Positions 1 through 13,879 of a stretch of 64,000 nucleotides of DNA are shown here, in pieces. The DNA is taken from assembly GCF_023498005.1 (NCBI RefSeq), contig NZ_CP097289.1, positions 3,782,001-3,846,000 on the forward strand, read 5' to 3'. The position numbers and the translations under genes are program-made. A model generated the notes under the pieces. That model made no database searches, was not told the origin of the DNA, and was given only the letters and a program-made list of their open reading frames with translations. Position 1 is the first letter of the stretch; every line of letters starts with the position of its first letter. Source of the DNA: Streptomyces durmitorensis (GTDB lineage: Bacteria > Actinomycetota > Actinomycetes > Streptomycetales > Streptomycetaceae).

Positions 1-1134
1 GTCGCCATCGACGAGGTCGACGCCCGCTCGGTGGTCGTCTCGGCCGACGGCCGCGAGGCGGCCGGGCTCCGGGACGCGGGCTACCAGCTCAAGGCCTTGG
101 CCGGACCCCCGAAGCGTACGAACGGCGAGCCCGTGGAGGCCAAGGACTTCCCGCCCGCCGACGCGAGGTACCACAACTACGCGGAGATGAACGCGGAGAT
201 CAACCAGCGCATCGCGGCCCATCCGACCCTGATGAGCAAGAGGGTCATCGGCAAGTCCTACTCGGGCCGGGACATCGTCGCCATCAAGATCAGTGACAAC
301 GTGGGCACCGACGAGGCCGAGCCCGAGGTCCTCTTCACCCACCACCAGCACGCCCGCGAGCACCTGACCGTCGAGATGGCGCTGTACCTCCTTCGCGAAC
401 TCGGCGACGACTACGGCACGGACGCGCGCATCAAGAAGATGGTCGACGAGCGCGAGATCTGGATCGTGCCGGACCTGAACCCGGACGGCGGCGAGTACGA
501 CATCGCGACCGGCTCCTACCGCAGCTGGCGCAAGAACCGCCAGCCCAACAGCGGTTCGTCGAACGTCGGCACCGACCTGAACCGCAACTGGGCCTACCGG
601 TGGGGCTGCTGCGGCGGCTCGTCCGGCTCCACGGGCTCCGAGACCTACCGCGGCCCGCGCGCCGAGTCGGCACCCGAGACGCAGGTCGTCTCCAACTTCG
701 TGCGCAGCCGCATCGTCGGCGGCAAGCAGCAGATCAAGGCCTCCATCGACTTCCACACGTACAGCGAGCTGGTCCTGTGGCCGTACGGCTACACGTACAG
801 CGACACGGGCCCCGGCCTCACCCAGGACGACCGCGACGCGCACGCCGCCATCGGCCGGAAGATGGCCGCGAGCAACGGCTACACGCCGCAGCAGTCCAGC
901 GACCTCTACATCACGGACGGGTCGATCAACGACTGGCTCTGGGGCAACCAGAAGATCTTCAGCTACACCTTCGAGATGTACCCGTCGTCCGCGGGCGGCG
1001 GCGGCTTCTACCCGCCCGACGAGGTGATCGAGCGGGAGACGAACCGCAACAGGGACGCGGTTCTGCAGCTCCTGGAGAACTCGGACTGCATGTACCGGTC
1101 CATCGGCAAGGAGCAGCAGTACTGCACCAGTTGA
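1..1134 (+). CDS. Secreted zinc carboxypeptidase, M14 family (5' end outside window)
   Basis: The reading frame is open from base 1, so the N-terminus lies outside the window. Visible zinc-ligand motifs of the M14 carboxypeptidase family are HxxE in HHQHAREH (H and E), a downstream His in FHTYSELV, and the catalytic Glu in YTFEMYP. The region LNPDGGEYD and the DLNRNW motif are also typical of M14 enzymes (substrate carboxylate binding by Asn-Arg). Adjacent Cys-Cys and a Cys pair at the C-terminus suggest disulfides, fitting an exported enzyme that trims C-terminal residues from peptides outside the cell. The frame ends at a TGA followed by a terminator hairpin. Family assignment is firm; substrate preference cannot be read from sequence. 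Confidence 0.93.
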
Positions 1135-1154
1135 GGTGCGTGAACTGTCAGGAG

Positions 1155-1181
1155 CGGGCAGGGAGACTCGTTCCCTGCCCG
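1155..1181 (+). terminator. Terminator hairpin after the M14 carboxypeptidase
   Basis: Perfect 10-bp inverted repeat CGGGCAGGGA / TCCCTGCCCG with a 7-nt loop, 20 nt after the stop codon. No U-tract follows, which is usual for Streptomyces terminators. Confidence 0.7.
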
Positions 1182-1248
1182 AGCCGTACCCCCGTCCCCC
1201 GTGTGCTGCTAGCCTCGCGAGACAGGCTCACGGGGGACGAGGGCCATC

Positions 1249-1725
1249 ATGAGGACACCACGAACTGCCTTACGCACCTTGGTAGTTGCCCTGATCTCCG
1301 GTGCGCTGTTCCTGGGTGGAGCGGCGTGCTCGGGTGGGGCCGGGGACTCCGGAGGTCCGGGAGGTCCGGGAGGCCCCGGAGTGTCGGACGGGCCGGAAGC
1401 ACCGCCGGGCGAGAATCCGCCGGACTCCGGTGCGGCGACCTCGCATCAGGACACGGCGGGCCAGGACACGGCGGGCCAGGGCAGCGGGAAGCCGCACGGG
1501 GACGACGTGCCGCCGGTGGCGTCTCCCTCCGTGGACACCGGAAAGCCGGTGCCGCCCGGACCGGGTACGACACCCACCCACGAGCCGCCCTCCTCCCCTC
1601 CGGGCTGCACCGATCAGACCCCGGGGCCGGGCGAATCGGGCCCCTTCCAGTGCCCGCCTTCCCCCTCCAGCGTCTCCCCGCAGGTGCCTGGCATCACCCC
1701 ACCGGGCCCGACCCCCGCGCCGTGA
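1249..1725 (+). CDS. Putative Gly/Pro-rich lipoprotein
   Basis: 158 aa. It has a lipoprotein signal: basic start, hydrophobic stretch around residues 9-23 and a lipobox LGGAAC with Cys27, so it should be lipid-anchored on the outer face of the membrane. The rest is low complexity, Gly/Pro/Ser rich and probably unstructured, with two short GQDTAGQ-like repeats. GAGGG lies 5 nt before the ATG. The stop overlaps the GTG of the next gene, so the two are translationally coupled and probably act together. No enzymatic domain is visible. Confidence 0.7.
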   Translation: MRTPRTALRTLVVALISGALFLGGAACSGGAGDSGGPGGPGGPGVSDGPEAPPGENPPDSGAATSHQDTAGQDTAGQGSGKPHGDDVPPVASPSVDTGKPVPPGPGTTPTHEPPSSPPGCTDQTPGPGESGPFQCPPSPSSVSPQVPGITPPGPTPAP

Positions 1726-2705
1726 CCGGCCCGGACGACCGCACGGCGGCCCGGCGGGCCTCCCGGCAGCGGCGCAGAACGGCGGCCTCCACGCGCCGGG
1801 CACCGACAGCGAGCCGCCGCGTCCACATCCGCGCCCGCCCCGGTCCCGGCCCCGCCCCACCCGATCCGCCGAAGCCCGCGTCCGGCCTGATGGAACTGGT
1901 CAACGGCGCCGTCGGGGCAGGCACGTTGATCGCGGCACTGATGTTCTACGCGGGCATCATCCACAGCAGCTCGTACTACGCGTACTTCCGCCTCAACGTC
2001 TACTCGCTCGGTCTCGCACTGCCCCAAGTGACCATCTGGAGCCTGCGGTTGGTCACCATGGACGTCCTGATCGCCCTGGCACTCCTCGCGCTCGTCCCGC
2101 GTGCGCAGGAACTCCTGGCCGTGCTGCGGTTGCCGCCCGCCGCCCTCGCCCGTGTCCGCCGCGCGGCGCGTGCCGTGGTCCGGCTCAACCCGGTGATCGT
2201 CGCCGCCGGCGTCGTCCTGATGGTGCTGTGGCCGTACGTGCAGCCCTATGGCTGGGCGGCTCCCCTGCTGGTGGCCGCGGGCCTCGTGCTCGGGCAGAGC
2301 CGCACGGCCAACCCCGCGGCGCCCCCACACGGCTGGTGGCGCAAGGGACTGCCGGTGGCCGTCGCCGGGCTGTGCGTGGTGTGGGTGATCGCCCTGCTCG
2401 CCGGGCAGCTCGGACGGCAGGACGCCCGAGCCGCCGCCGACCGCCTGGTGAGCCGTACCGCCGTGGTCGTCCTGAGCACGGAGCGCCTGAGCATCAGGGG
2501 CCCCGGCATCATCGCGGAGGACCTCGGCAGGACCGTGCGCTACCGGTACCGCTACAGCGGCCTGCGGCTCCTGATCGAGCGCGACCGCCGCTACTACGTG
2601 CTCCCGCTGGGCTGGCAGAAGCGTACGGACGCCACGTACGTCATCGATGACGACGACACCGTCCGCATCGAACTGCTGCCGGGCACCCAGCCCCCGCGAC
2701 AGTGA
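1722..2705 (+). CDS. Multi-pass membrane protein, unknown function
   Basis: 327 aa from a GTG that overlaps the preceding stop in a GTGA arrangement. The first ~55 residues are Arg- and Pro-rich and look disordered; G/C at third positions there supports that they are coding. About five hydrophobic segments follow (for example AGTLIAALMFYAGII, VTMDVLIALALLALV, NPVIVAAGVVLMVLW, AAPLLVAAGLVLG, AVAGLCVVWVIALLAG), then a C-terminal soluble domain of about 100 residues. An alternative start is the ATG at 1890, which would remove the basic tail. I do not recognise the family. Coupling to the lipoprotein suggests a joint envelope role. Confidence 0.75.
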   Translation: MTGPDDRTAARRASRQRRRTAASTRRAPTASRRVHIRARPGPGPAPPDPPKPASGLMELVNGAVGAGTLIAALMFYAGIIHSSSYYAYFRLNVYSLGLALPQVTIWSLRLVTMDVLIALALLALVPRAQELLAVLRLPPAALARVRRAARAVVRLNPVIVAAGVVLMVLWPYVQPYGWAAPLLVAAGLVLGQSRTANPAAPPHGWWRKGLPVAVAGLCVVWVIALLAGQLGRQDARAAADRLVSRTAVVVLSTERLSIRGPGIIAEDLGRTVRYRYRYSGLRLLIERDRRYYVLPLGWQKRTDATYVIDDDDTVRIELLPGTQPPRQ

Positions 2706-2740
2706 AAGGCGCCCCGGACCATGACGGTCCGGGGCGCCTT
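2706..2740. terminator. Bidirectional terminator between the membrane protein gene and gntP
   Basis: Perfect 15-bp inverted repeat (2706-2720 and 2726-2740) around a 5-nt loop, starting right after the stop codon. It begins AAGG and ends CCTT, so it carries short A/U ends in both directions and can serve the convergent genes on either side. Confidence 0.85.
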
Positions 2741-2778
2741 CAGGGGTTATTCCGCCAGCTATTCCGCCAGCTCTTCCG

Positions 2779-4275
2779 CTACACGAACAGGCTCACCACG
2801 GCCGCCACCGCGAACCCGGCCAGGGAGAGGACCGACTCCAGGACTGTCCACGTCTTCAGCGTGTCCCGCTCCGAGATGCCGAAGTACTTCGCCACCATCC
2901 AGAAGCCGCCGTCGTTGACGTGCGAGGCGAAGATCGAACCCGCCGAGATCGCCATGATGACCAGGGCGACGAACGCCTGTGAGTGGTCGCCCTCGGCGAG
3001 GAGGGGGGCCACGATGCCCGCCGTCGTCACGATCGCCACCGTCGCCGAGCCCTGGGCGACGCGAAGGACCAGGGAGAGCAGGTAGGCGAGGACGATGATC
3101 GGCAGGCCTACGTCCTGGAAGGTGTCCGAGAGGGCCTTGGCCACGCCGCTCGCCTTGAGGACCGCGCCGAAGATACCGCCGGCGCCGACCACCAGGAGGA
3201 TGTTGCCGACCGGCTTCAGGGAGGAGGTCGACACCGTCTCCAGGGACTTGCGGGACCAGCCGCGCCGGATGCCGAGGAGGTAGTACGCCATGAGCAGGGC
3301 GATCGTCAGGGCGACGAAGGGGCTGCCGAAGAACTCGATGACGCTTCGCAGCGTCGAGGGGTCGAAGGCGATCGACGAGAAGGTCGCGAGGAGGATCAGG
3401 AACAGCGGCGTTCCGATGATCGCGAAGACCATGCCGAGCGGCACCGGCTTCTCGCGCGGCTCGACGCCTGCCGCACGCTGCTCGGCGACGACCGCCTGCC
3501 GCGCCTCGTCGGCGGCCTCGACCATGTCCTGCGGGACGGGCACGAAGATGCGCTTGCCGATCCAGGCCGAGTAGACCCAGGCGGCGATGACGGCCGGGAT
3601 GCCGCAGACGATGCCCATCAGGATGACCCAGCCGAGGTCCACCTTGAGCAGACCGGCCGCGGCCACCGGGCCCGGGTGCGGGGGCAGGAACGCGTGGGTC
3701 ATGGACAGACCCGCGAGCAGGGGCAGGCAGTAGAGCAGGATCGACTTGCCGCTGCGCTTGGCGGCGGCGTACACGATCGGCGCGAGGACGAAGATGCCGA
3801 CGTCGAAGAAGACCGGGATGCCGAAGATCAGGCCCGTGAGGCCCATCGCGAGGGGCGCCCGCTTCTCACCGAAGAGCCCGAGGAGGCGCGATGCCAACAC
3901 CTCGGCGCCGCCCGACACTTCGAGTATCGCGCCGAGCATCGTGCCGAGGCCGATGATGATCGCCACATGGCCGAGGATGCCGCCCATGCCGGACTCGATG
4001 ACGGATATCGCGTCGGACTTCTGGACCGTGCCGAAGAGTTCGGTGACGGAGAGGCCGGCCGAGAGGCCGACGACTATGGAGACCGCGAGCAGCGCCACGA
4101 AGGGCTGCAGCCTGACCTTGATGATCAGGAAGAGCAGAAGCACGATGCCGAGCGCGGCGACGGTCAGCAGGCCCGCCGTCCCGTCGATCAGGGTGAGGAT
4201 TCCGCCGGTGTGAGGTGGTTCCTCGGCGGCAGGGGCGGCGGCCGCGAGCGCGGCGAAGGGGGACGACGGGGACAT
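2779..4275 (-). CDS. GntP family permease (gluconate / D-serine type)
   Basis: 498 aa with about 12-14 hydrophobic segments, matching the usual ~450-aa GntP family plus a longer central loop. GntP members are proton symporters for gluconate and related sugar acids; the DsdX branch carries D-serine. Family-like segments include the GIPVFFDVGIFVLAPIV and LPPHPGPVAAA stretches. GAGGTC precedes the ATG. The gene lies downstream of ridA in the same direction but is separated from it by a strong hairpin, so it may be expressed at a lower level or from its own promoter. Given its neighbours (KDG-type kinase, D-amino acid enzymes), the cargo is probably a sugar acid, amino-sugar acid or D-amino acid; sequence alone does not decide. 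Confidence 0.9.
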   Translation of the reverse strand: MSPSSPFAALAAAAPAAEEPPHTGGILTLIDGTAGLLTVAALGIVLLLFLIIKVRLQPFVALLAVSIVVGLSAGLSVTELFGTVQKSDAISVIESGMGGILGHVAIIIGLGTMLGAILEVSGGAEVLASRLLGLFGEKRAPLAMGLTGLIFGIPVFFDVGIFVLAPIVYAAAKRSGKSILLYCLPLLAGLSMTHAFLPPHPGPVAAAGLLKVDLGWVILMGIVCGIPAVIAAWVYSAWIGKRIFVPVPQDMVEAADEARQAVVAEQRAAGVEPREKPVPLGMVFAIIGTPLFLILLATFSSIAFDPSTLRSVIEFFGSPFVALTIALLMAYYLLGIRRGWSRKSLETVSTSSLKPVGNILLVVGAGGIFGAVLKASGVAKALSDTFQDVGLPIIVLAYLLSLVLRVAQGSATVAIVTTAGIVAPLLAEGDHSQAFVALVIMAISAGSIFASHVNDGGFWMVAKYFGISERDTLKTWTVLESVLSLAGFAVAAVVSLFV

Positions 4276-4318
4276 CTTTGACCTCGTAAGTGCATGAAGC
4301 TTTCAGGGCAGGGGGGAT

Positions 4319-4361
4319 CACGGCGCGGCGCCCGAAGGGGGGAGTTGGGCGCCGCGCCGTG
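4319..4361 (-). terminator. Hairpin between ridA and gntP
   Basis: Perfect 15-bp inverted repeat (4319-4333 and 4347-4361) around a 13-nt purine-rich loop. It lies downstream of ridA and upstream of the gntP start on the minus strand, so it can end or attenuate transcription of the kinase-iclR-ridA unit before gntP. Confidence 0.75.
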
Positions 4362-4414
4362 ACGACTAGCGGCTTGCGGAGGGTGGATCAGGGAACGGGC
4401 TGGGACGGGCTGCG

Positions 4415-4828
4415 TCAGCTCAGGACGGCGAGCGCGTCGATCTCGATGAGCAGACCCTTGGGCAGGCCCACGTAGACCGTGGTGCGGGCCGATGCGGGGG
4501 CCTTGAGGCCCTGCTCCTCGAAGTACGCGTTGTAGATCTCGTTCATCTCGGCGAAGTGGTCCACGTCCGTGAGGTAGACGCGCATCATCATCACGTCGTC
4601 CCAGGTCGCGCCGCCCTCTTCGAGGATCGCCTTGACGTTGGCGAACGTCTGGAGGGTCTGCTCGCGCAGGGTCGGGCCCGCGGGGGTGGGGGCCTTGCCC
4701 TCCTCGGCGGGCAGGAAGCCGACCTGACCGGCGACCTGAAGGATGTTGCCCTTCTTCACGCCGTGGGAGAACTTCGCGGGCGGGGTGGTGTGGGTGGCCG
4801 GGGTGAGGGCGATCTTCTCGGTGGTCAT
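4415..4828 (-). CDS. RidA family enamine/imine deaminase
   Basis: 137 aa from the ATG encoding MTTEKIAL; the open frame continues upstream into iclR but only this start leaves a normal RidA. Family features are the ASART segment, whose Arg binds the substrate carboxylate, and the surrounding Rid/YjgF fold motifs (QVAGQVGF, DVDHFAEMNEIYNAYF). RidA hydrolyses the reactive 2-aminoacrylate-type enamines released by PLP dehydratases. It starts 7 nt after the iclR stop and so is co-transcribed with it. The likely partner is the PLP enzyme at 6791, encoded divergently. Confidence 0.92.
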   Translation of the reverse strand: MTTEKIALTPATHTTPPAKFSHGVKKGNILQVAGQVGFLPAEEGKAPTPAGPTLREQTLQTFANVKAILEEGGATWDDVMMMRVYLTDVDHFAEMNEIYNAYFEEQGLKAPASARTTVYVGLPKGLLIEIDALAVLS

Positions 4829-4835
4829 GACGTGC

Positions 4836-5594
4836 TCAGGCTTCCTTGAGGGGTGACTTGCCGGAGTACTCCCGGCTGATGGCGTCCGCCGTACGGCGCA
4901 CCAGCGGGAGCAGCGTGAGGAGTTCGTCGGCGGTGACGACGACGTTCGGCGCGGACACCGACATGGCGGCGACGACCCGGCCGTCCGCACCGCGGATGGG
5001 GGCCCCGATGCAGTTGATGGACTCCTCGTGGCCACCGAGGTCGGTGGCCCATCCCTGTTCGCGTACGGCGGCGAGTTCCTTGAGGAACGCGGCGGCGTTG
5101 GGCGTCGAACGGGACGTGTAGGTGGGGTAGTCGAGCTTCTCCGCGATGGCGCGGCGCTCGGCCTCGGGAAAGTCGGAGATCAGCAGCTTGGCCACGGCCG
5201 CGACGGTGATCGCGACGGGCTTCCCGATGCGCGAGTACATCCGCACCGGGTAGCGGCTCTCGACCTTGTCGATGTAGAGGACTTCCTGCTCCTCGTAGAC
5301 CGCGAGGTGGACCGTGTGGCCGCACTTCTCGTTGAGCGCGAGGAGGTGGGGGTGCGCGATCTCGCGTACGTCGAGGTTCTCGACGGCTTCCTGGGCGAGC
5401 GCGAAGAGGCGGGCGCCCAGGCGGTAGCGCTGGTCGGACTGGCGGTAGACCAGGCCGTGTTCGTGGAGCGTGCGCAGGAGTCGCAGGGCGGTGGACTTGT
5501 GCACTTCGAGACGCTCGGCGACCTGGCCGAGGTCGGCGGGGCCTTCGGCGAGCAGCGGCAGGATGGACAGGGCGCGGTCGACGGTCTGGCTCAT
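4836..5594 (-). CDS. IclR family transcriptional regulator
   Basis: 252 aa. The N-terminal winged helix-turn-helix (about residues 1-65, with LGQVAERLEVHKSTALRLLRTL) is followed by the IclR effector-binding domain (about 80-245, with the conserved GAPIRGADGRVVAAMSVSAPN stretch in the C-terminal part). IclR proteins bind palindromes near their own operon and respond to small metabolites such as 2-keto-3-deoxygluconate (KdgR type). The start overlaps the kinase stop by 4 nt. A 19-bp palindrome in the divergent promoter region (6752-6770) is the probable operator. The regulator likely controls both arms of this locus. Confidence 0.93.
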   Translation of the reverse strand: MSQTVDRALSILPLLAEGPADLGQVAERLEVHKSTALRLLRTLHEHGLVYRQSDQRYRLGARLFALAQEAVENLDVREIAHPHLLALNEKCGHTVHLAVYEEQEVLYIDKVESRYPVRMYSRIGKPVAITVAAVAKLLISDFPEAERRAIAEKLDYPTYTSRSTPNAAAFLKELAAVREQGWATDLGGHEESINCIGAPIRGADGRVVAAMSVSAPNVVVTADELLTLLPLVRRTADAISREYSGKSPLKEA

Positions 5595-6661
5595 GTACGT
5601 GCCTCCTCCTTGGCCTCAGTGTTCACGGGGACGCCGTCCGTCCAACCCGGGCCGAGACGAAGTGTCCCCCAGGCCTCTGCGTCCAGTGCGGCAAGGCGAT
5701 CGGTGTGCTCCCTCGCGGGCGGCGTGGCGAGGTCGCCGGGGACGGTGAGCGCGGCGGCGGCCATGAGGTGCCCGTGGCGAAGGCGCTGGTCGGCGGTCAG
5801 GCCGCGCAGGGTGGCGGAGAGGAATCCGGCGGCGAAGGCGTCGCCCGCGCCCACGGGGGCGACGACGTCGACCTTGAGCGCCGCCTGGAAGACGGCGGGC
5901 TCGCCCTCGGTGTAGACGGTGGCGCCGCCGCTGCCCTGCTTGACGACCAGGGTCGCGGGCTCGGGGAGCGCGGCGCGGATGGCGTCGGGGCCGCCGGTGA
6001 CGTCCCACGCGTCGGCGGCCTCGTCCTCGCCGACGAAGACGAGGTCGGCGCCGCGCGCGAGGTCGAGGAGGACGCGGGGGCTCTCGCTCGCCTCGCCGCT
6101 CCACAGACCGGGTCGGTAGTTGACGTCGAAGGACACCAGGGGGCGGCCGGGGCGGGGTGCGGTCAGCTCGCGCAGGAGGGCGAGGCAGTCCGCGGAGAGG
6201 GCGGCGGTGATGCCGGAGAGGTGCAGGATGCGGCCGCCGTCCAGGGCGTCGCGGTCCACGCTGCGCGGCGCCATCGCCGACGCCGCCGAGCCCGCGCGGT
6301 AGTAGAGGACCTCGTGGGCGTCGGTGTCGCGGTCGTCCGCCGTGCGGAAGTAGATGCCGGTGGGGCGGTGCGGGTCGCGGCCGACGCAGCGGGTGTCCAC
6401 GCCGTAGCGGGCGATCGCCTCGACGAGGTGGTCGCCGAAGCCGTCGGCGCCGACGCGGCTGACCCAGCGGGTGCGGTGCCCGGCCGCGGCGAGGGCGCAG
6501 GCGACGTTCGACTCGGCGCCGCCGATTCCGCGATCGAAGGAGGGGACGTCGGCGAGGCGGCCCGCGCGGGAGGGCAGGAACGTGACCATGGACTCGCCGA
6601 GTGCCACGACGTCCACTGCTGCCTGCGCGGCCTCTGCGGCGTTTGCGGCCTCTGCCGTCAC
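5591..6661 (-). CDS. kdgK: PfkB-family sugar kinase, 2-keto-3-deoxygluconate kinase-like
   Basis: 356 aa from a GTG preceded by AGGAAAG. PfkB signature 1 is near residues 44-60 (GIGGAESNVACALAAAG) and signature 2 contains GAGDAFAAGF with catalytic Asp274. The segments VVALGESMVTF, WVSRVGADGFG, RPTGIYFR and YYRAGSAASAM are typical of 2-keto-3-deoxygluconate (KDG) kinases, which make 2-keto-3-deoxy-6-phosphogluconate. It is the first gene of a kinase-iclR-ridA unit, with a 4-nt overlap to iclR. The first ~15 residues are Ala-rich and may be dispensable. The pairing with IclR and GntP supports sugar-acid catabolism; no KDPG aldolase gene is present in the window. Confidence 0.85.
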   Translation of the reverse strand: MTAEAANAAEAAQAAVDVVALGESMVTFLPSRAGRLADVPSFDRGIGGAESNVACALAAAGHRTRWVSRVGADGFGDHLVEAIARYGVDTRCVGRDPHRPTGIYFRTADDRDTDAHEVLYYRAGSAASAMAPRSVDRDALDGGRILHLSGITAALSADCLALLRELTAPRPGRPLVSFDVNYRPGLWSGEASESPRVLLDLARGADLVFVGEDEAADAWDVTGGPDAIRAALPEPATLVVKQGSGGATVYTEGEPAVFQAALKVDVVAPVGAGDAFAAGFLSATLRGLTADQRLRHGHLMAAAALTVPGDLATPPAREHTDRLAALDAEAWGTLRLGPGWTDGVPVNTEAKEEART

Positions 6662-6717
6662 GATCTTTCCTGCCCCTCAACCGACTGTCCGGATCCGTTG
6701 ACCCGGCGTTGGCTCGG

Positions 6718-6747
6718 ATGTTAGACAGCAGTAAGCGACATACGCAA
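6718..6747 (-). promoter_or_regulatory. Candidate promoter of the kinase-iclR-ridA unit
   Basis: On the minus strand, TTGCGT (6742-6747) and TAACAT (6718-6723) are separated by 18 bp and end about 57 nt before the kinase GTG. It sits next to the IclR-like palindrome. Confidence 0.45.
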
Positions 6748-6751
6748 TGAC

Positions 6752-6770
6752 CGTTGCACATTATGCAACG
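6752..6770. promoter_or_regulatory. Probable IclR operator in the divergent promoter region
   Basis: Perfect 7-bp arms CGTTGCA / TGCAACG around CATTA. It lies 20 nt before the ATG of the 6791 gene and just upstream of the minus-strand promoter, in the only divergent gap of the locus. Short A/T-centred palindromes of this size fit IclR-family binding sites. Assignment to the local IclR is inference. Confidence 0.6.
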
Positions 6771-6790
6771 CACCTTTTCGAGGAGGCGCC

Positions 6791-8098
6791 ATGGCCGCCG
6801 ACAACGCCGCAGACCACTCCGCCGGACGTGCCGCCCGGGAGCTCGCACGGCTCAGCGAGGAGCGAGTGGACCACCGCTTCAAGGGCCTGCCCCCGGACGC
6901 GGAGGGACTGACGGTCGGCGAGCTCGCGGCACAGCGCCGCAACCTCTTCACGGACGGCTTCACCACCCCCGTCCTCGCCCTCTCCGCCGAGCGCCTGGAG
7001 CACAACCTCGCGCTGATGGAGACGTACTCCGAGCGGCACGGCCTCGCCTTCGCCCCGCACGGCAAGACGTCCATGGCTCCGCAGCTCTTCGCGCGGCAGA
7101 TGGAGCGCGGCGCGTGGGGCATCACGCTGGCTGTGCCGCATCAGGTGCGGGTGGCGCGTGCCTTCGGGGTGGAGCGGATCTTCCTCGCCAATGAGCTGGT
7201 GGACGCTTCGGCGCTGCGCTGGATCGCGGGCGAACTGGACGCCGATCCCTCCTTCCGCTTCATCTGCTACGTCGACTCCGTGCCCGGCGTCGCCCTGATG
7301 GACGCCGCTCTGCGCGAGGCGAACGCGACGCGTCCGGTCGACGTCGTGGTGGAGCTCGGCGCGGGCGACGGGGCGCGCACCGGTGTGCGCACCGAAGCCG
7401 AGTGCGTGGAGATCGCCAACGCGGTCGCGGCGGCGGACACGCTGCGTCTGGTGGGCGTCGCGGGCTACGAGGGCGAGGTGCCGGAGGCGACGCCCGAGCG
7501 CGTGCGCGCCTGGCTGGAGCGGCTCACCGCGCTCGCGGTCGACTTCGACAAGGCGAACCGGTTCGCGGACCTGGACGAGGTCGTCGTCAGCGCCGGTGGC
7601 AGCGCGTGGTTCGACGCCGTGGCGGACGTCTTCGCCCAGATCCCCGAACTGTCGGTGCCTGTCCTGAAGTTGCTGCGTTCGGGTGCGTACGTCTCTCATG
7701 ACGACGGCCACTACCGCCACCTGACCCCCTTCAACCGCGTCCCGGACGAGGGCGCGCTGCACCCGGCGTTCCGGCTCTGGGCGCAGGTGGTGTCCCGGCC
7801 CACGCCGGAGCAGGCGTTCACGAACGCGGGGAAGCGGGACGCGGCGTACGACATCGACCTGCCCGAGGCGCAGGTCGTCCACCGGGGCGGGGTGGACCGG
7901 CCTGCTACGGGCGTCACGGTGACGGGCCTCTCCGACCAGCACGGGTGGGTCCGTACGACCCCGGAGGCGGATCTCGCCGTGGGTGACTGGGTGGGCATGG
8001 GGCTCTCGCACCCGTGCACGTCCTTCGACAAGTGGCAGCTGATTCCCCTGGTCGAGGGCGACGGAACGGTCACGGATTACATCCGCACCTATTTCTGA
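6791..8098 (+). CDS. PLP-dependent D-threonine aldolase / D-serine dehydratase-like enzyme (amino acid deaminase)
   Basis: 435 aa; AGGAGG precedes the ATG. It has the alanine racemase-like fold of the D-threonine aldolase/DSD1 family: the PLP lysine is in HGKT (Lys92), with VELGAGDGARTGVR and a Gly-rich VVSAGGSAWFD phosphate-binding region, and a C-terminal metal-site motif GLSDQHG then LSHPCTSFDKW (His and Cys ligands expected for the zinc or manganese of this family). These enzymes cleave or dehydrate D-beta-hydroxy amino acids. It is divergent from the kinase-iclR-ridA unit and upstream of a D-aminoacylase. RidA nearby fits an eliminase that releases enamines. Exact substrate unknown; D-serine, D-threonine or D-glucosaminate are the plausible options. 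Confidence 0.85.
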   Translation: MAADNAADHSAGRAARELARLSEERVDHRFKGLPPDAEGLTVGELAAQRRNLFTDGFTTPVLALSAERLEHNLALMETYSERHGLAFAPHGKTSMAPQLFARQMERGAWGITLAVPHQVRVARAFGVERIFLANELVDASALRWIAGELDADPSFRFICYVDSVPGVALMDAALREANATRPVDVVVELGAGDGARTGVRTEAECVEIANAVAAADTLRLVGVAGYEGEVPEATPERVRAWLERLTALAVDFDKANRFADLDEVVVSAGGSAWFDAVADVFAQIPELSVPVLKLLRSGAYVSHDDGHYRHLTPFNRVPDEGALHPAFRLWAQVVSRPTPEQAFTNAGKRDAAYDIDLPEAQVVHRGGVDRPATGVTVTGLSDQHGWVRTTPEADLAVGDWVGMGLSHPCTSFDKWQLIPLVEGDGTVTDYIRTYF

Positions 8099-8439
8099 CC
8101 CCTGGGCCTTGGGCGGATCCCCGATCACCCCGCGGTGCCGGGTGGGCGAACAAGCAGAACCGCCGCTCCGCGGCGGGTGTCTCCCACCCACCCACCCGAT
8201 TGCCCCGCGGCACGAGGGGGTGGGCGGGTGGGGACACCGCACACGCTGGGGACGGTGGGACGACCGCCACCCCCCGCAACGACCCGCAAGGGCCAGTCGC
8301 CGACGGTGGCTCGCCCCCGCCAGGGCCACCCGCACCCGACGACGAGAGTCGCACGGGTGGTGCGGGTGGGAGACACAACCCGGCCGGAGGCCGGATGCAC
8401 CACACGCAGCCCGCAGCCAAGCAAAGAGAGAGGCACCCC
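8099..8439. repeat. Intergenic region with a large imperfect hairpin (8176-8238)
   Basis: 341 nt without a gene. GGTGTC at 8176-8181 pairs with GACACC at 8233-8238, and the inner C-rich run CCCACCCACCC pairs with the G-rich run GGGTGGGCGGG, giving a stem-loop of about 63 nt. A second small hairpin, CCGCCGCTCCGCGGCGG, lies just upstream. A related G-rich block recurs at about 8350-8370 (CGGGTGGTGCGGGTGGG). The region could end transcription, act as a structured leader for the D-aminoacylase mRNA, or belong to a dispersed intergenic repeat family. No coding signal is seen. Confidence 0.6.
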
Positions 8440-10050
8440 GTGGACCTCGTCATCCAAGACGCCCGCGTCATCGACGGCACCGGAGGTGCCTCCTACCGAG
8501 CCGACGTCGGCGTACACGAAGGCAGGATCACCGAGATCCGCAGGGAGGGCGAAGGCCCCCGCCTCTCGGGGACCCGCACGGTCGAGGCCGAAGGCCTCGC
8601 CCTGGCCCCCGGGTTCATCGACATGCACGCCCACAGCGACCTCGCCCTCCTCCGCGACCCGGACCACAGCGCGAAGGCCGCCCAGGGCGTGACCCTGGAG
8701 GTCATCGGCCAGGACGGGCTGAGCTACGCACCGGTCGACGACCGCACCCTCGCCCAGGTCCGCCAGGCCATCACCGGCTGGAACGGCGAAGGCAGCGACA
8801 TCGACTTCGACTGGCGCACGGTCGGCGAGTACCTGGACCGCCTCGACCGCTCGCACGGCGGCCACGGCATCGCCGTCAACGCGGCCTACCTCATCCCCCA
8901 GGGCACCGTCCGCATGTACGCGGTCGGCTGGGACGACCGCCCGGCGACCCCCGCCGAGGTCGAGCGGATGAAGCAGCTCGTCGCCGAAGGCATGGAGCAG
9001 GGCGCCGTCGGCATGTCCTCCGGCCTCACCTACACCCCCGGCATGTACGCCGACGACTCCGAACTCACCGAGCTCTGCAAGGTGGTGGCCCAGTTCAACG
9101 GCTACTACTGCCCCCACCACCGCAGTTACGGCGCCGGCGCCCTCCAGGCGTACGAGGAGATGGTCAACCTCACGCGCACCGCGAACTGCCCCCTCCACCT
9201 CGCGCACGCCACCATGAACTTCGGCGTGAACAAGGGCAAGGCCCCCGACCTGCTCGCCCTCCTCGACACCGCGCTCGCGGGCGGCGCCGACATCACCCTC
9301 GACACCTACCCCTACACCCCCGGCTGCACAACTCTCGTCGCCATGCTGCCCAGTTGGGCCAGCGAGGGCGGGCCCGACGCGATTCTCGCCCGGCTGAAGG
9401 ACGACGAGACCGCCGAGAAGATCCGCCACCACATGGAGATCATCGGCGCCGACGGCTGTCACGGCGTACCGATCGAATGGGACAAGATCGAGATCTCGGG
9501 TGTGAGCGACCCCGGTCTTGCCTCCTGCGTGGGCAAGACCGTCGCTCAGTCCGCCGCCCAGCGCGGCGAGGAGCCCTGGATCACCGCCCGCCGCCTCCTC
9601 ATCAACGACAAGCTGGGCTCCACGATCCTCCAGCACGTCGGCCACGAGGAGAACGTCCAGGCGATCATGCAGCACCCCGTGCACACGGGCGGCAGCGACG
9701 GCATCCTCCAGGGCTTCAAGCCGCACCCGCGCGCGTACGGCACGTTCCCGCAGTACCTCGGGCGCTACGTACGCGAACTCGGCGTCCTCACCCTGGAGGA
9801 CTGCGTCGCCCACCTCACCGGACGCCCGGCGGCCCGCCTGCGCCTGCCCGACCGGGGCCTCGTACGCGAGGGCTACCGCGCCGACCTGGTCCTCTTCGAC
9901 CCGGAGACGGTCGCGGCGGGCTCCACCTTCGACGCTCCCCGCACGCTTCCCTCCGGCATCCCGCACGTCCTGATCGACGGCAAGTTCGTGATGGAGGACG
10001 GGCGACGCACGGACGTCCTCGCGGGACGGTCGGTGCGCCGGACTCCCTAG
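8440..10050 (+). CDS. N-acyl-D-amino acid deacylase (D-aminoacylase)
   Basis: 536 aa from a GTG preceded by GAGAGAGG; an in-frame ATG at 8395 has no ribosome site. It is an amidohydrolase-superfamily enzyme: the N-terminal beta-sandwich (DLVIQDARVIDGTG) is followed by the metal motif DMHAHSD (His63, His65), with further candidate ligands in CPHHRSYG, HLAHATM and the HTGGSDG Asp motif. The C-terminal GYRADLVLFDP is the family's closing strand. It removes acyl groups from N-acyl-D-amino acids. It follows the PLP enzyme in the same direction after a 341-nt structured gap. Together they suggest deacylation followed by ammonia release from a D-configured amino acid. Confidence 0.92.
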   Translation: MDLVIQDARVIDGTGGASYRADVGVHEGRITEIRREGEGPRLSGTRTVEAEGLALAPGFIDMHAHSDLALLRDPDHSAKAAQGVTLEVIGQDGLSYAPVDDRTLAQVRQAITGWNGEGSDIDFDWRTVGEYLDRLDRSHGGHGIAVNAAYLIPQGTVRMYAVGWDDRPATPAEVERMKQLVAEGMEQGAVGMSSGLTYTPGMYADDSELTELCKVVAQFNGYYCPHHRSYGAGALQAYEEMVNLTRTANCPLHLAHATMNFGVNKGKAPDLLALLDTALAGGADITLDTYPYTPGCTTLVAMLPSWASEGGPDAILARLKDDETAEKIRHHMEIIGADGCHGVPIEWDKIEISGVSDPGLASCVGKTVAQSAAQRGEEPWITARRLLINDKLGSTILQHVGHEENVQAIMQHPVHTGGSDGILQGFKPHPRAYGTFPQYLGRYVRELGVLTLEDCVAHLTGRPAARLRLPDRGLVREGYRADLVLFDPETVAAGSTFDAPRTLPSGIPHVLIDGKFVMEDGRRTDVLAGRSVRRTP

Positions 10051-10681
10051 GTGGCGGGGCTCGGCCCCCGAACGCGAGAAGCCGATTCTCCTTGGCGGTC
10101 ACACTTCGTGGCCAGGGGCTCCGCGCCGCCGAGCCGGGAGGCTTCGCGGTGCCTGCGGCCTTGCTGCATGCCGGGGCCGCCCGGTTGTCCTGAGGTTGGC
10201 GGTTCCGGGCCGGGAGTCAAGGGCGCTCCTGCGTCGCGTCGGCTGCGCCGATTCCGCTTCGCTCCACCCTTGACACCCGTCCCTCCACCGCGCGAAGCGA
10301 TATGACCGGGCGGCCACGGGGTGGGACTCTCGACCACTCCCGTCAGGCCATCACCCTCTCGCTGCCGGGTGCGGCCCGGCTCATTGCGCGTGACCCCCAG
10401 GGGGGAGAAGGGCGGGCGCCCGGTCCGCAGCCGCTCCGGGGAGGGGTGCCGGTCTCGTCAAGCGGCTGCGGACCGGATCTGCGTGCTGACGGGGAGGCCC
10501 TGGGGGGGGCGGGTTCGGTGCGACTTTCCTGCAATCCGCGTGGGGTGGCGCACCTACTTTGGGAAAGTTGTGTTCTGGCAGAAGGGGGGCGCACGCGTCG
10601 CCGGATGCGCCTTCTTGGAAATAGGTGTAGGTGCCGGACCAGCGAAGCCCCAAGCCAGGCCCGCGCGCCCGCTACCCCTAA
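10051..10681. repeat. Gene-free region with two hairpin-forming inverted repeats
   Basis: 631 nt with no convincing gene. GTCAAGGG (10216-10223) pairs with CCCTTGAC (10267-10274) across a 43-nt interior. A stronger structure is the perfect 16-bp repeat 10420-10435 / 10461-10476 (CGGTCCGCAGCCGCT core) with a 25-nt loop. The stretch 10550-10680 is less GC-rich than its surroundings (for example TTGGAAATAGGTGTAGG). These hairpins may be terminators or a small structured RNA; I cannot tell which. Confidence 0.5.
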
Positions 10682-11293
10682 CTACTTCTTCTTGCCCTTG
10701 ATGTCGATGTGGGCGTTGAACTTCGCGCCCAGGATCGTCACGAACACGTTGCCCTGCCGGCCGCGTGTGTCCAGGGTGCCCCCGACCTGCCCCTTGCCGA
10801 GGGCGGCCTTGTCCTGGATCGCGGTCGAGCGGAGGTTCGTGAACTGGTTGTAGCGCTGCGACGCCAGGTCGGCGGCTTCCGCCCACTCCTCCTGGAAAGA
10901 GGAGTATTCGGTCTCCGTCATGCCGGAACCGAACGTGAAGTTGGGATGGTTGGCCTGCTCGTAGTGGTGCCTGCACAGATTGAGGAGCGAGCCGGCGTCG
11001 CTCGACACCCCGACCGCATTCACAAAGGAATCGGCCTGCTTCTTGATCTCCGCCGTACGTTCCGCCACCCGTGCCGCGCGCCGCTGTTCGGCCACGTCGT
11101 CGTCGAGGGTCTTCTTGGCCGCCGCCAGACCGTTGTTCTTGTCCTCGTAGGTCGCGATGCGGACGGAGGCTTCCCGCTTGCGCTGCGGGATCAGTCCCCA
11201 GGGAAGGCCGATCGACTCGCTGTACTCGGTGAGCAGGTCGGTCGCTTCCGTCTCGTCGTTCGCGTATTCCACGTGACCGATCATCTTGGTCAT
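10682..11293 (-). CDS. Hypothetical protein, coiled-coil-like
   Basis: 203 aa. The ATG (MTKMIGH) is chosen because GGAGAAAGGGG lies 5 nt upstream; the open frame extends 26 codons further without a ribosome site. The protein has no signal peptide or membrane segment. Its middle (about residues 50-95) is rich in Lys, Glu, Arg and Ala (AAKKTLDDDVAEQRRAARVAERTAEIKKQ), suggesting a long helix or coiled coil. It ends in a basic KGKKK tail. I do not recognise a family. It stands alone between a hairpin-rich gap and decayed regulatory genes, the setting of a horizontally acquired or orphan gene. Confidence 0.7.
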   Translation of the reverse strand: MTKMIGHVEYANDETEATDLLTEYSESIGLPWGLIPQRKREASVRIATYEDKNNGLAAAKKTLDDDVAEQRRAARVAERTAEIKKQADSFVNAVGVSSDAGSLLNLCRHHYEQANHPNFTFGSGMTETEYSSFQEEWAEAADLASQRYNQFTNLRSTAIQDKAALGKGQVGGTLDTRGRQGNVFVTILGAKFNAHIDIKGKKK

Positions 11294-11358
11294 GGTGTCC
11301 CCTTTCTCCCCGCCGGTCCGTCCGGCGACGAGTCGCGCGGGCAACGTCTCACCGGAGC

Positions 11359-11384
11359 GGGCCGCCGTCACCGGGTGGCGGCCC
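11359..11384 (-). terminator. Hairpin between the hypothetical gene and the decayed XRE fragment
   Basis: 8-bp inverted repeat GGGCCGCC / GGCGGCCC around a 10-nt loop, downstream of the minus-strand fragments at 11409-11835. Confidence 0.5.
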
Positions 11385-11408
11385 GTCCGGTTCTCGCCGC
11401 TGGGCCCC

Positions 11409-11522
11409 CTACCTCAAGGCGGTCCCGCCCTCTTCGATGCACTCGATGTCGTCCTGCTCCATACCGGTGCGCTCGGCGAGCTGTGCCGAACTCAGTACGC
11501 GGGCTACCTCACGCGCGGCACA
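11409..11522 (-). pseudogene. Remnant of an XRE-type helix-turn-helix gene
   Basis: The frame ends ..VARVLSSAQLAERTG.. followed by MEQDDIECIEEGG and a stop. This matches the recognition-helix region of XRE regulators (QLAERTGM..IxxIExGG), but only about 33 residues of HTH-like sequence remain. The usual N-terminal helices and the C-terminal continuation are missing. It directly adjoins the truncated ATPase gene upstream. Confidence 0.5.
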
Positions 11523-11835
11523 GCGCCAGCTCGATCCACACCGTCTTGCCGATCCCGTACGGCCGGGGGTGCGACCCCCACGCGTCGGCCAGCAGCTCCA
11601 CCAGGGCAAGCCCCCGCCCCGACTCGTCGTCCGGCCCCGCCGGAACCCGCCCGTGCCGTACGGCATTGGTCATCAGCTCACTGAGCAGCAGTACGGCGGT
11701 GTCCGCCACGTCGTTCGGGACCTTCCAGGCGCGCGCCTGCTCGGCCAGCAGTGACCGTGCCCTGCCGACACTGCGCGGCCCGCGCGGCAGCCGCCAGGCA
11801 ATCTCCCTCGGCAGAGGGGAAGTTGCGCGTTCCAT
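11509..11835 (-). pseudogene. RsbW-like anti-sigma / HATPase with an internal deletion
   Basis: 108 aa. The N-terminal part (SVGRARSLLAEQARAW, then LLLSELMTNAVRHG) is the N-box of the Streptomyces HATPase_c anti-sigma family, and the C-terminal part (ESGRGLALVELLADAWG, then GIGKTVWIEL) carries the G1 and G2 boxes. Normally some 30-40 residues of beta-sheet separate NAVRH from the DDESGRG motif; here only VPAGPD-type linker sequence remains. The ATP lid can probably not fold normally, so I call it degenerate, although it is still an open frame with an ATG. Confidence 0.6.
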
Positions 11836-12451
11836 GCCTCATACGCTGAGGGGCGGTCGCTATGACCGAGGTGAACTCCCAGCCGGTGAGATGTGCGATG
11901 CGCATGGGTTGTTGCTGTCTGCACAGGACTATCTGAAGCCGGAGCCGTTTCCGGCGCGGTCGCAAGAATTCATGCAGGCGGAGGCCGAGGCCATCGCCAT
12001 CCATCGGAGGCGTACGACACGCTCGCCCGGCTCGGGGCGGCCGACAACCGGCTGACGCTCTCGGCGGCCGAGTGCGCCGCCCTCGAAGAGCTCGCCGCCC
12101 AGTGGCTCGCGCGCGGGGTCACGCCCGAGGGGCTCGTGCGCGCCCTCACCGCCGGGCTGCCGGAGCAGGTGCACTCCCCCGGCGCCTTCGTCCGCCGCAG
12201 GTCACCGCACGGCGTCAGGTCCTCGTGGAGTGCACGGGCTGCGGCGTGCCGGGCCTCCCCGAAAGGCTGCCGGACGGGCTCTGCAAGCCGGGGACAAGGC
12301 GGCGGCAGCGGGATGGCGAAGGGCCCCGCCGCCGCGCTGCCGAGTGGCGGCGCTCAGAAGCCGTACGAGTCTTCCACCCGTCTCGTACAACTCTTCGACT
12401 CCCTGGAGTGTCTATGGCACCGTCCAGCACAGCTCCAAGGAGTGAACCTTC
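11836..12451. other. Gene-poor region holding a frameshifted remnant
   Basis: 616 nt between the broken ATPase and the FG-GAP gene. Apart from the frameshifted remnant at 11972-12290 (separate entry) I see no gene. AAGGAG at about 12438 is the ribosome site of the FG-GAP gene. Confidence 0.5.
11972..12290 (+). pseudogene. Frameshifted remnant of a conserved Streptomyces HTH-type protein
   Basis: Protein-like sequence continues across three frames: MQAEAEAIAI, then EAYDTLARLGAADNRLTLSA and on to AGLPEQVHSPGAFVRRR, then VLVECTGCGVPGLPERLPDG. The frame changes lie at about 12000-12007 and 12195-12225. The parts fit one ancestral protein with a helical domain and a C-terminal CxxC motif, but no single frame spans it. 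The similarity is to small actinobacterial helix-turn-helix proteins as I recall them; the name is tentative. Confidence 0.5.
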
Positions 12452-13879
12452 ATGCCCCTGCCTTTCCGCACTGTCGTTGCCACCGCGGCCGTCTCCGCGC
12501 TGACCGGCGGTCTGTTGGTCGTCGGCCCAGTGGCGTCGGCCGCCGCCGCTCCTGCCAAGCTCGCCGACGACTTCAACGGCGACGGGCACCGGGACATCGC
12601 GGTCGGCGCGCCGTACAAGACCGTCGGCGGGGCGGAGGCCGCGGGTGAGGTGGTCGTGGCCTTCGGGACGGCCGACGGCCTGGCCACCACCGTCAAGGCC
12701 TCTCTCACTCAGAGCTCCGCGGGAGTGCCGGGCACGCCGGAGGACAGTGACCACTTCGGGATGTCGATCGCCAGCGGCGACCTCGACGGTGACGGGTACG
12801 CGGACCTCGTCGTGGGCGCCGACGGTGAGGACGTGGGGGCCTATGAGGGCCAGGGCAGCGTCACCATCCTGTGGGGCGGCACCAAGCCGTTCACCACCAG
12901 CACCACCACCACTGTGGAGAATCCGGAGCAGTGGCAGGCCCACGGCTGGGACGTCGCGGTGGGGGACTTCACCGGCGACAGCGGCGCGGACCTCGCGGTG
13001 ATCGAGCCGGGAGCGGTCGTCGTGTACAAGGGCGGCCTCGCCCGGGGCAGCAACCCGGTCCCTGCGTACACCCTGTCGGCCTCCAGTGCGGGCCTGCGGT
13101 TCTCGGAGGCCGCCGTGGGCGACGTCAACGGGGACGGCAAGGACGACCTGGCGGTGACCGGCGATGCCGGTACCGGACGTCCGGGCACCGCCGTCTTCAC
13201 GGGCCAGGAGGGCAGTCCGAACCGCATTCAGCGCGTGGACGACGGCAACACCGCCGTCGCGCTCGGTGACATCAACGGCGACGGCTTCGACGACATGGCC
13301 ACGTCCCTGACCTGGCCCGACTTCTTCTCCGTCGAAGACCCCAGCAACGGCTCCGGCTACGTCACCGTCCGCCTCGGCAGCAGCACGGGCTTCGGTGAGC
13401 CGGTGACCCTGCACCAGAACAGCACTGGCGTGCCCGGCGCCAACGAGGACGGTGACAACTGGGGAGCCTCGGTGGCGATCGGTGACGTCACCGGCGACGG
13501 CAAGGCCGAACTGGTGGTCGGCGCCAACGGCGAACAGCTCGGCGACCTGGACAACGCCGGCGACGTGACCGTGTTCCGAGGTTCCGCCTCCGGTGTCTCG
13601 CAGTCCGGGGTCGTGCGCATTTCCCAGGACACCGCCGGAGTTCCGGGCGCCGCCGAGGCCGGGGACCTCTTCGGCGCGCAGGTCCGTATCGCCGACTACG
13701 ACAAGAACGGCAAGGGCGACCTGGCGGTGACCGCCTCCTTCGAGAACGACCGCAGCGGTGGCCTGTGGACCCTGCCGGGCTCGTCGTCCGGCCTCACCGG
13801 TACCGGTTCCAAGTCCCTCAGCTCGGCCGAGTTCGGCCTCGCGACCGGCTCGCGGTTCGGCGAGACCCTCCAGGACTGA
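12452..13879 (+). CDS. Secreted FG-GAP repeat (integrin alpha-like beta-propeller) protein
   Basis: 475 aa. A Sec signal peptide covers about residues 1-34, with a likely cleavage after ASAAAA. The mature part is a series of FG-GAP repeats with calcium-binding motifs such as DFNGDGHRD, DLDGDGYAD, DVNGDGKDD, DINGDGFDD, DVTGDGKAE and DYDKNGKGD at roughly 60-residue spacing, as in a seven-bladed propeller. Such secreted Streptomyces proteins bind ligands or act in wall and matrix interaction; no catalytic residues are evident. The ATG has AAGGAG about 10 nt upstream. It is monocistronic, closed by a strong terminator. Confidence 0.92.
   Translation: MPLPFRTVVATAAVSALTGGLLVVGPVASAAAAPAKLADDFNGDGHRDIAVGAPYKTVGGAEAAGEVVVAFGTADGLATTVKASLTQSSAGVPGTPEDSDHFGMSIASGDLDGDGYADLVVGADGEDVGAYEGQGSVTILWGGTKPFTTSTTTTVENPEQWQAHGWDVAVGDFTGDSGADLAVIEPGAVVVYKGGLARGSNPVPAYTLSASSAGLRFSEAAVGDVNGDGKDDLAVTGDAGTGRPGTAVFTGQEGSPNRIQRVDDGNTAVALGDINGDGFDDMATSLTWPDFFSVEDPSNGSGYVTVRLGSSTGFGEPVTLHQNSTGVPGANEDGDNWGASVAIGDVTGDGKAELVVGANGEQLGDLDNAGDVTVFRGSASGVSQSGVVRISQDTAGVPGAAEAGDLFGAQVRIADYDKNGKGDLAVTASFENDRSGGLWTLPGSSSGLTGTGSKSLSSAEFGLATGSRFGETLQD

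Follow-up and report, generated by a model that had tools for sequence, protein, structure and literature searches.

A predicted IclR regulon of Streptomyces for the breakdown of an N-acylated amino-sugar acid, joined by a probable operator to a distant KDPG aldolase gene

Genes for a D-aminoacylase-like amidohydrolase, a pyridoxal phosphate (PLP) enzyme, a RidA-family protein, a sugar-acid kinase, a GntP-family permease, and an IclR-family regulator lie side by side in Streptomyces durmitorensis, which raises the question of what single process they could serve. We analyzed a stretch of 64,000 nucleotides (GCF_023498005.1, contig NZ_CP097289.1, positions 3,782,001 to 3,846,000; hereafter, the window, numbered from its first base). 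We consider it rather probable that the six genes belong to a catabolic regulon under IclR control whose substrate is an N-acylated 2-amino-2-deoxy-aldonic acid, with N-acetyl-D-glucosaminate (GlcNAc1A) as the likeliest candidate. Genome comparisons revealed a conserved cluster, a shared operator-like palindrome at the cluster and at a distant gene (eda) for 2-keto-3-deoxy-6-phosphogluconate (KDPG) aldolase, covariation of this palindrome with IclR, and co-occurrence of the kinase with the aldolase.

Families were called with Pfam cut-offs and NCBIfam models for ten open reading frames (ORFs) of the window (31-13879). The ORFs of all six functions named in the initial annotation were present, each above the Pfam cut-off for its family:

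2779..4275, minus strand: GntP-family permease (PF02447, 430 bits; TIGR00791, 386 bits, above its cut-off)
4415..4828, minus strand: RidA-family enamine/imine deaminase, counterpart of OngD of the ong cluster described below (PF01042, Ribonuc_L-PSP; start read from the translation)
4836..5594, minus strand: IclR-family regulator (PF01614/PF09339)
5591..6661, minus strand: PfkB kinase of the 2-keto-3-deoxygluconate (KDG)-kinase type (Pfam PfkB; similarity to 1v19)
6753..6769, no strand: perfect palindrome GTTGCACATTATGCAAC, probable IclR operator, between the divergent arms
6791..8098, plus strand: fold-type III PLP enzyme (PF14031, D-ser_dehydrat; PF01168, Ala_racemase_N)
8440..10050, plus strand: D-aminoacylase-like amidohydrolase, predicted N-deacylase (Amidohydro_3)

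The RidA gene had been placed at 4415, which is the end of the ORF; its start is most likely 4828. Transcription on the minus strand runs from the PfkB kinase through IclR and RidA to GntP, with the kinase and IclR ORFs overlapping by 4 bases (5591-5594), and on the plus strand from the PLP enzyme to the amidohydrolase. The two arms are separated by a 129-bp gap (6662-6790).

The PLP protein has a single match at E <= 0.001 in its own 9.86-Mb genome. Its gene is matched in 149/150 Streptomyces genomes (G139 only at 1.5e-7, and several matches in pieces) and, at E <= 1e-20, in 30/396 genomes sampled across the phylum, 12 of the 30 being Streptomyces. The named loci used for counting are the best 80 of 463 matches and thus a sample biased towards close relatives; 62 of them are full-length (longer than 19 kb). 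Of these 62, 57 have all six genes in the same order; gene by gene, the PLP enzyme, the amidohydrolase, and the kinase are present in 62 each, IclR and RidA in 61 each, and GntP in 57. A further 58 Streptomyces stretches, chosen to oversample divergent genomes and in part having short flanks, include 20 with all six genes, 13 with all but GntP, 12 with the PLP enzyme, amidohydrolase, IclR, and RidA, and 13 with fewer or other sets. Outside Streptomyces, all six genes occur on an Arthrobacter plasmid (L187) and in G419 (L094, same class), and five of the six occur in G409 (L095, same class). The order kept in 57/62 loci and the complete sets on the plasmid and in G419 argue that the grouping is not due to chance. 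Thus, the six genes do stay together in other Streptomyces, and the two divergent arms, on whose joint conservation the initial annotation depended, are conserved together there as well as in Arthrobacter and G419. A search of viral contigs returned one weak locus only and was uninformative.

The palindrome has the form GTTGCR-N5-YGCAAC and ends 21 bp upstream of the PLP gene start. At two or fewer mismatches, GTTGCA-N5-TGCAAC is found in 132/146 loci (138 Streptomyces and 8 others), including the non-Streptomyces loci L094, L095, and L187; 320-bp windows drawn at random from these 146 loci contain a site with zero to two mismatches in 37/1980 cases, some of which are the sites themselves. Across the 146 loci, IclR and the palindrome are both present in 125 and both absent from 13, IclR occurs alone in 1, and the palindrome occurs alone in 7. 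The lone locus with IclR and no site, L054, has a best site with three mismatches, and four of the seven palindrome-only loci have <1.1 kb of upstream sequence, so that an IclR gene would fall beyond the stretch. The palindrome is probably the operator of IclR, and IclR is probably the repressor of the entire regulon; the highest NCBIfam score of the IclR protein is to KdgR, under the cut-off of that model. Exact searches for GTTGCR-N5-YGCAAC in eight genomes gave 1 to 7 places per genome, versus 0 to 2 for a reversed control. The five exact sites in the S. durmitorensis genome comprise the cluster, the KDPG aldolase gene, a gene for an ATP-binding cassette (ABC) sugar-binding protein, and two positions at or inside other ORFs.

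The KDPG aldolase gene (G000:C1:6596086-6596718) is situated 2.8 Mb from the cluster, with the operator 44 bp before its matched start. An operator site was identified upstream of eda in 31/31 orthologues (16 exact, 13 with one mismatch, and 2 with two mismatches), although the best site in L292 is 198 bp away and perhaps due to chance. In 3100 mononucleotide shuffles of these upstream regions, 0, 3, and 71 sites appeared at 0, 1, and 2 mismatches, respectively, and random 210-bp windows of the collected loci contained a site with zero to two mismatches in 123/5000 cases, the sites themselves included. The gene stands alone, with no second sugar-acid gene around it in a crude gene call read by eye.

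Across 150 Streptomyces genomes, with orthologue cut-offs of >= 61% identity for the kinase and >= 69% for eda, the in-cluster kinase was found in 121 and eda in 120. Both genes are present in 115 genomes and neither in 24, with 6 kinase-only and 5 eda-only genomes (139/150 concordant); the six kinase-only genomes are fragmented assemblies of 460 to 1140 contigs. Whether the kinase adjoins the PLP gene was determined by script in the collected loci and, for some of the 121 genomes, by visual inspection. When only losses are counted on a PLP tree covering 59 of these genomes, the kinase was lost 8 times and eda 7 times; 6 of the losses are the same event and one is nested (three fragmented kinase-bearing genomes were left aside in the eda count). 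A GntP orthologue is present in 96/150 genomes, 94 of which also have the in-cluster kinase. In G058 and G145, the amidohydrolase is matched by fragments only. The same operator before eda ties the cluster to KDPG cleavage, and the cluster and remote aldolase would so constitute one regulon ending in KDPG. With the shared operator and the co-loss, the lower half of the route is best supported as a conversion of KDG via KDPG into pyruvate and glyceraldehyde 3-phosphate. The KDG end of the pathway envisaged in the initial annotation is therefore strengthened, and its single IclR-controlled unit is upheld in an enlarged form that reaches beyond the window to the aldolase gene.

In the proposed pathway, the GntP permease would import an N-acylated aldonate-type substrate, the amidohydrolase would take off the acyl group, and the PLP enzyme, judging from its family and context, would eliminate water and ammonia to yield KDG, with RidA clearing enamine/imine intermediates. 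The kinase would convert KDG to KDPG, as suggested by its family and its co-occurrence with the aldolase, and the distant aldolase under the same operator would split KDPG into pyruvate and glyceraldehyde 3-phosphate. If a PLP dehydratase supplies KDG, its substrate should be a 2-amino-2-deoxy-aldonate, for which the amidohydrolase points to an N-acyl form. GlcNAc1A, the C1-oxidized end left on chitin by lytic polysaccharide monooxygenases (LPMOs), would be the obvious source in the environment for a genome with AA10 LPMO-family matches.

This scheme has a precedent. In the ong (oxidative chitin utilization) cluster of the marine gammaproteobacterium Pseudoalteromonas prydzensis, knock-outs and assays proved a GlcNAc1A route in which OngB deacetylates GlcNAc1A, OngC (which acts on D-serine and D-threonine too) deaminates the product to KDG, and KdgK phosphorylates KDG; the RidA protein OngD is also needed, and the repressor is of the RpiR type (Jiang et al. 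2022; PMC9537276). That paper reports the pathway from Gammaproteobacteria and one Achromobacter among 2,455 marine and 12,220 terrestrial genomes, and the word Streptomyces appears neither in its main text nor in that of the OngB paper (PMC12017989). The initial annotation knew of no description of such an arrangement, but a cluster leading from N-acetyl-D-glucosaminate via KDG to KDG-6-phosphate was published in 2022; no paper describing the Streptomyces locus was found in the open-licence literature.

Both systems combine a D-aminoacylase-fold deacetylase, a fold-type III PLP deaminase, RidA, a KDG kinase, and a repressor, and a putative KDPG aldolase also belongs to the ong versions of Vibrio, Klebsiella, and Serratia (PMC9537276). 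The ten window ORFs, however, include no SSS transporter, RpiR-type repressor, or GH20 gene; GntP and IclR stand in place of the SSS transporter and the MurR/RpiR regulator, the kinase has a nearer relative in 1v19 than in the ong kinases, and the aldolase is at a distant, operator-linked locus. Identities to the ong loci of P. piscicida and Vibrio (L180 and L181) are 30.5-31.8% for the PLP enzyme, 28.7-29.9% for the amidohydrolase, 27% for RidA, and 25.7-28.0% for the kinase; the published screen required four or more ong homologues at E < 1e-5 and identity > 30%, with a query strain different from the loci used here (PMC9537276). In Ralstonia eutropha, the gene set H16_B1211-B1213 is annotated as a putative glucosaminate cluster, in which kdgK and eda accompany a putative 2-amino-2-deoxy-D-gluconate enzyme (PMC3734047). 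Judged by the active site of the amidohydrolase, the clade of the PLP enzyme, and the types of kinase, transporter, and regulator, the Streptomyces enzymes are not ong orthologues but non-orthologous members of the same superfamilies, and the regulon resembles the gammaproteobacterial pathway in its working while being assembled from different proteins. The palindrome between the arms and the operator joining the cluster to the distant aldolase are newly found here.

The best solved relative of the kinase is the KDG kinase 1v19 (163 bits), in agreement with its initial assignment; it scores 177 bits against the KDG-kinase NCBIfam equivalog, below the cut-off of 400, and the motif YYRxGSA is present in 115/118 loci having a kinase match. 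For the PLP enzyme, the nearest solved structure is 3GWQ (labelled D-serine deaminase; 283 bits). Its motifs PHGKTSM and SHPCTSFDKW conform to the PHGKTxM and SHPCxxFDKW common to OngC and 3GWQ, and it has HxC as in that group, whereas the D-threonine aldolases 4v15 and 7dib, also of fold-type III, have HxD. We take the Cys of HxC to mark dehydratases among fold-type III PLP enzymes, and an aldolase function is disfavored by this motif. In a FastTree phylogeny of 24 proteins, two of them OngC, the window protein falls in a separate actinobacterial clade (support 0.94), outside the clade of OngC and 3GWQ (1.0). We predict that it is a 2-amino-2-deoxy-aldonate dehydratase/deaminase. In Cupriavidus campinensis (hits H111/H27), a 69%-identical relative of 3GWQ is encoded 1.2 kb from a D-aminoacylase-like gene; given this neighborhood and its position in the OngC clade, 3GWQ itself, although deposited as a D-serine deaminase, may be a glucosaminate deaminase.

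The amidohydrolase keeps the D-aminoacylase fold and, in an alignment to OngB, His68/His70, His222/His252, the catalytic Asp368, and Arg379. It has 537 residues versus 489 in OngB (9kb1; PMC12017989), and an Asp takes the aligned position of the usual Cys metal ligand; alignment is not reliable at the position corresponding to OngB Gln298. The haloarchaeal relative from Natrinema (L182), adjoined by DUF1611 and dipeptide epimerase genes, also has Asp at the Cys ligand. A possibility that we hold only tentatively, as somewhat short of probable, is that Streptomyces assembled a GlcNAc1A route independently, with a second de-N-acetylase lineage and an IclR regulon joining a distant KDPG aldolase; this includes the origin of an Asp-for-Cys carbohydrate de-N-acetylase from D-aminoacylases separately from OngB.

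Several observations weigh against a GlcNAc1A regulon. Six residues of the OngB signature are replaced in the amidohydrolase (C97D, E226Y, K254T, S290G, S291C, and S292T), so that GlcNAc1A binding is not inferable from OngB and orthology to OngB is rejected on active-site residues, although the fold matches. The initial annotation is supported in part, at its KDG end, with N-acyl-D-glucosaminate as a candidate substrate. A second kinase motif, DxN[YL]RxxLW, occurs in only 48/118 loci, and the Fisher p value for kinase-eda co-occurrence (1.4e-17) ignores kinship. L173, L193, and L253 have the palindrome without IclR despite several kilobases of upstream sequence, and G089 keeps eda and its operator with no IclR match beside the PLP gene. 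A second KDG-kinase-like gene adjoins a second KDPG aldolase gene in the S. durmitorensis genome (G000:C1:6515244-6516811; L248), and this pair has no operator. The main contrary evidence is a Streptomyces lineage that lacks the in-cluster kinase and retains the PLP enzyme, amidohydrolase, IclR, and RidA. Ten of its genomes have no eda orthologue either (G012, G038, G039, G042, G054, G071, G074, G078, G083, and G134), and two keep eda (G105 and G047). In 12 of the 18 kinase-less genomes searched, there was no kinase match below 1e-25, 8 of these 12 having a weaker match (1e-20 to 1e-24), and in 2 of the 18, there was no match at all to the KDPG-aldolase family. An ong-type KdgK, at most 28% identical, could have been overlooked by the kinase search; in this lineage, the product may be processed by other enzymes, or D-serine may be the compound on which the front end acts.

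In favor of a link to chitin, the S. durmitorensis genome has five AA10 LPMO-family matches; chitin LPMOs are common in Streptomyces. Also in its favor, a partial GH18 match (295 residues; G000:C1:3779361-3780245, L206) lies ~4.5 kb past the GntP end, with GH18 matches in 21/62 full-length named loci and a GH18 gene also near the cluster in several divergent Streptomyces. No operator or DasR-like site was found near the five LPMO matches or the GH18 gene of S. durmitorensis, a further point against the proposal. Since GH18 represents one conserved synteny block and lacks an operator in this genome, we reject it as proof of a chitin link and regard it as suggestive at most. Control by DasR was also rejected, the window having no dre site at up to 4 mismatches from what we take to be the dre consensus; none was found at the five LPMO loci either, with up to 3 mismatches allowed, and the null result for the window therefore says little.

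Among other explanations, an unlikely one shares the KDG/KDPG end and differs in the substrate, which would be another amino-sugar acid or conjugate (D-glucosaminate in free form, its manno epimer, or a form linked to a peptide or another acyl group) from which the amidohydrolase removes a non-acetyl group. All alignable OngB hydroxyl-contacting residues and two carboxylate-contacting ones do differ, a family-5 binding protein and an ABC permease adjoin the L095 cluster, and relatives of the amidohydrolase have as neighbors RidA, an alanine-racemase-type gene, and oligopeptide ABC genes in Azospirillum, and DUF1611 and a dipeptide epimerase in Natrinema. The contexts of these relatives differ from that of the cluster and serve this explanation only; they are, however, just 37-40% identical with other residues at several sites, and the GntP orthologue in 96/150 genomes does not favor a change of substrate.

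Catabolism of N-acyl-D-amino acids, in which deacylation to D-serine or D-threonine is followed by deamination by the PLP enzyme and RidA while the kinase and aldolase, under the same regulator, serve something else, is quite improbable in our estimation. It would suit the label of 3GWQ, the activity of OngC on D-serine and D-threonine (PMC9537276), and the lineage in which the front end persists though kinase and eda are absent. As the initial annotation had argued, it leaves the kinase unexplained, nor does it account for the operator before eda or for the joint occurrence of kinase and eda; a sugar-acid kinase and a KDPG aldolase set the regulon apart from a D-serine/D-threonine catabolic operon, and the amidohydrolase lacks Lys254 and Ser291, which are strictly conserved in D-aminoacylases (PMC12017989). 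We give very little credence to two modules under one IclR, a D-amino acid module (PLP enzyme, amidohydrolase, and RidA) and a KDG module for aldonates or uronates (GntP, kinase, and eda), even though the KDG part was lost as a block in one lineage that kept the remainder and GntP and the kinase belong to general sugar-acid families: the kinase and PLP genes diverge from one palindrome-bearing promoter region in Streptomyces, Arthrobacter, and G419, and in L091 a kinase gene adjoins the PLP gene convergently with no amidohydrolase match.

Beyond the cluster and eda, operator-like palindromes lie upstream of the ABC sugar-binding-protein operon at G000:C1:6955379-6955395 (L311) and in G093 (L312). 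The same operon has GGTCTAGACC (DasR-like core) upstream and an adjoining glutamate-synthase-like gene, and, among solved structures, its binding protein is closest to sugar-binding proteins, several of which carry maltose or trehalose in their names. Its promoter holds additional TTGCAA repeats, and we do not claim it as a regulon target. The variant GTTGCG-N5-CGCAAC (L314-L317 and L320; G104, G007, and G067) is probably the site of another regulator; its neighbors in these three genomes, identified by eye, are genes resembling those for choline dehydrogenase and Rieske proteins.

Within the window, the gap between the PLP and amidohydrolase genes (8099-8439) is 341 bp; it is also long in two close relatives (L039 and L040) and just ~10-35 bp in several other Streptomyces loci. 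An M14 carboxypeptidase gene (31-1134) flanks the cluster and is present in 36/62 full-length named loci. ARAGORN called a tRNA-Ala (CGC) at 9985-10079, over the 3' end of the amidohydrolase gene, which is probably a false call, and an Rfam scan of positions 1-13000 gave zero matches at the gathering threshold.

Streptomyces are leading degraders of chitin in soil, and most of them look to carry a jointly controlled gene set seemingly built for the breakdown of an N-acylated amino-sugar acid. A regulated locus with a full candidate enzyme set in most sampled Streptomyces makes the fate of oxidized chitin sugars testable in soil bacteria, and its simple operator offers a means to find the regulon elsewhere. 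If the proposed GlcNAc1A function is true, one pathway would have been assembled on two occasions, from distinct branches of shared enzyme families.

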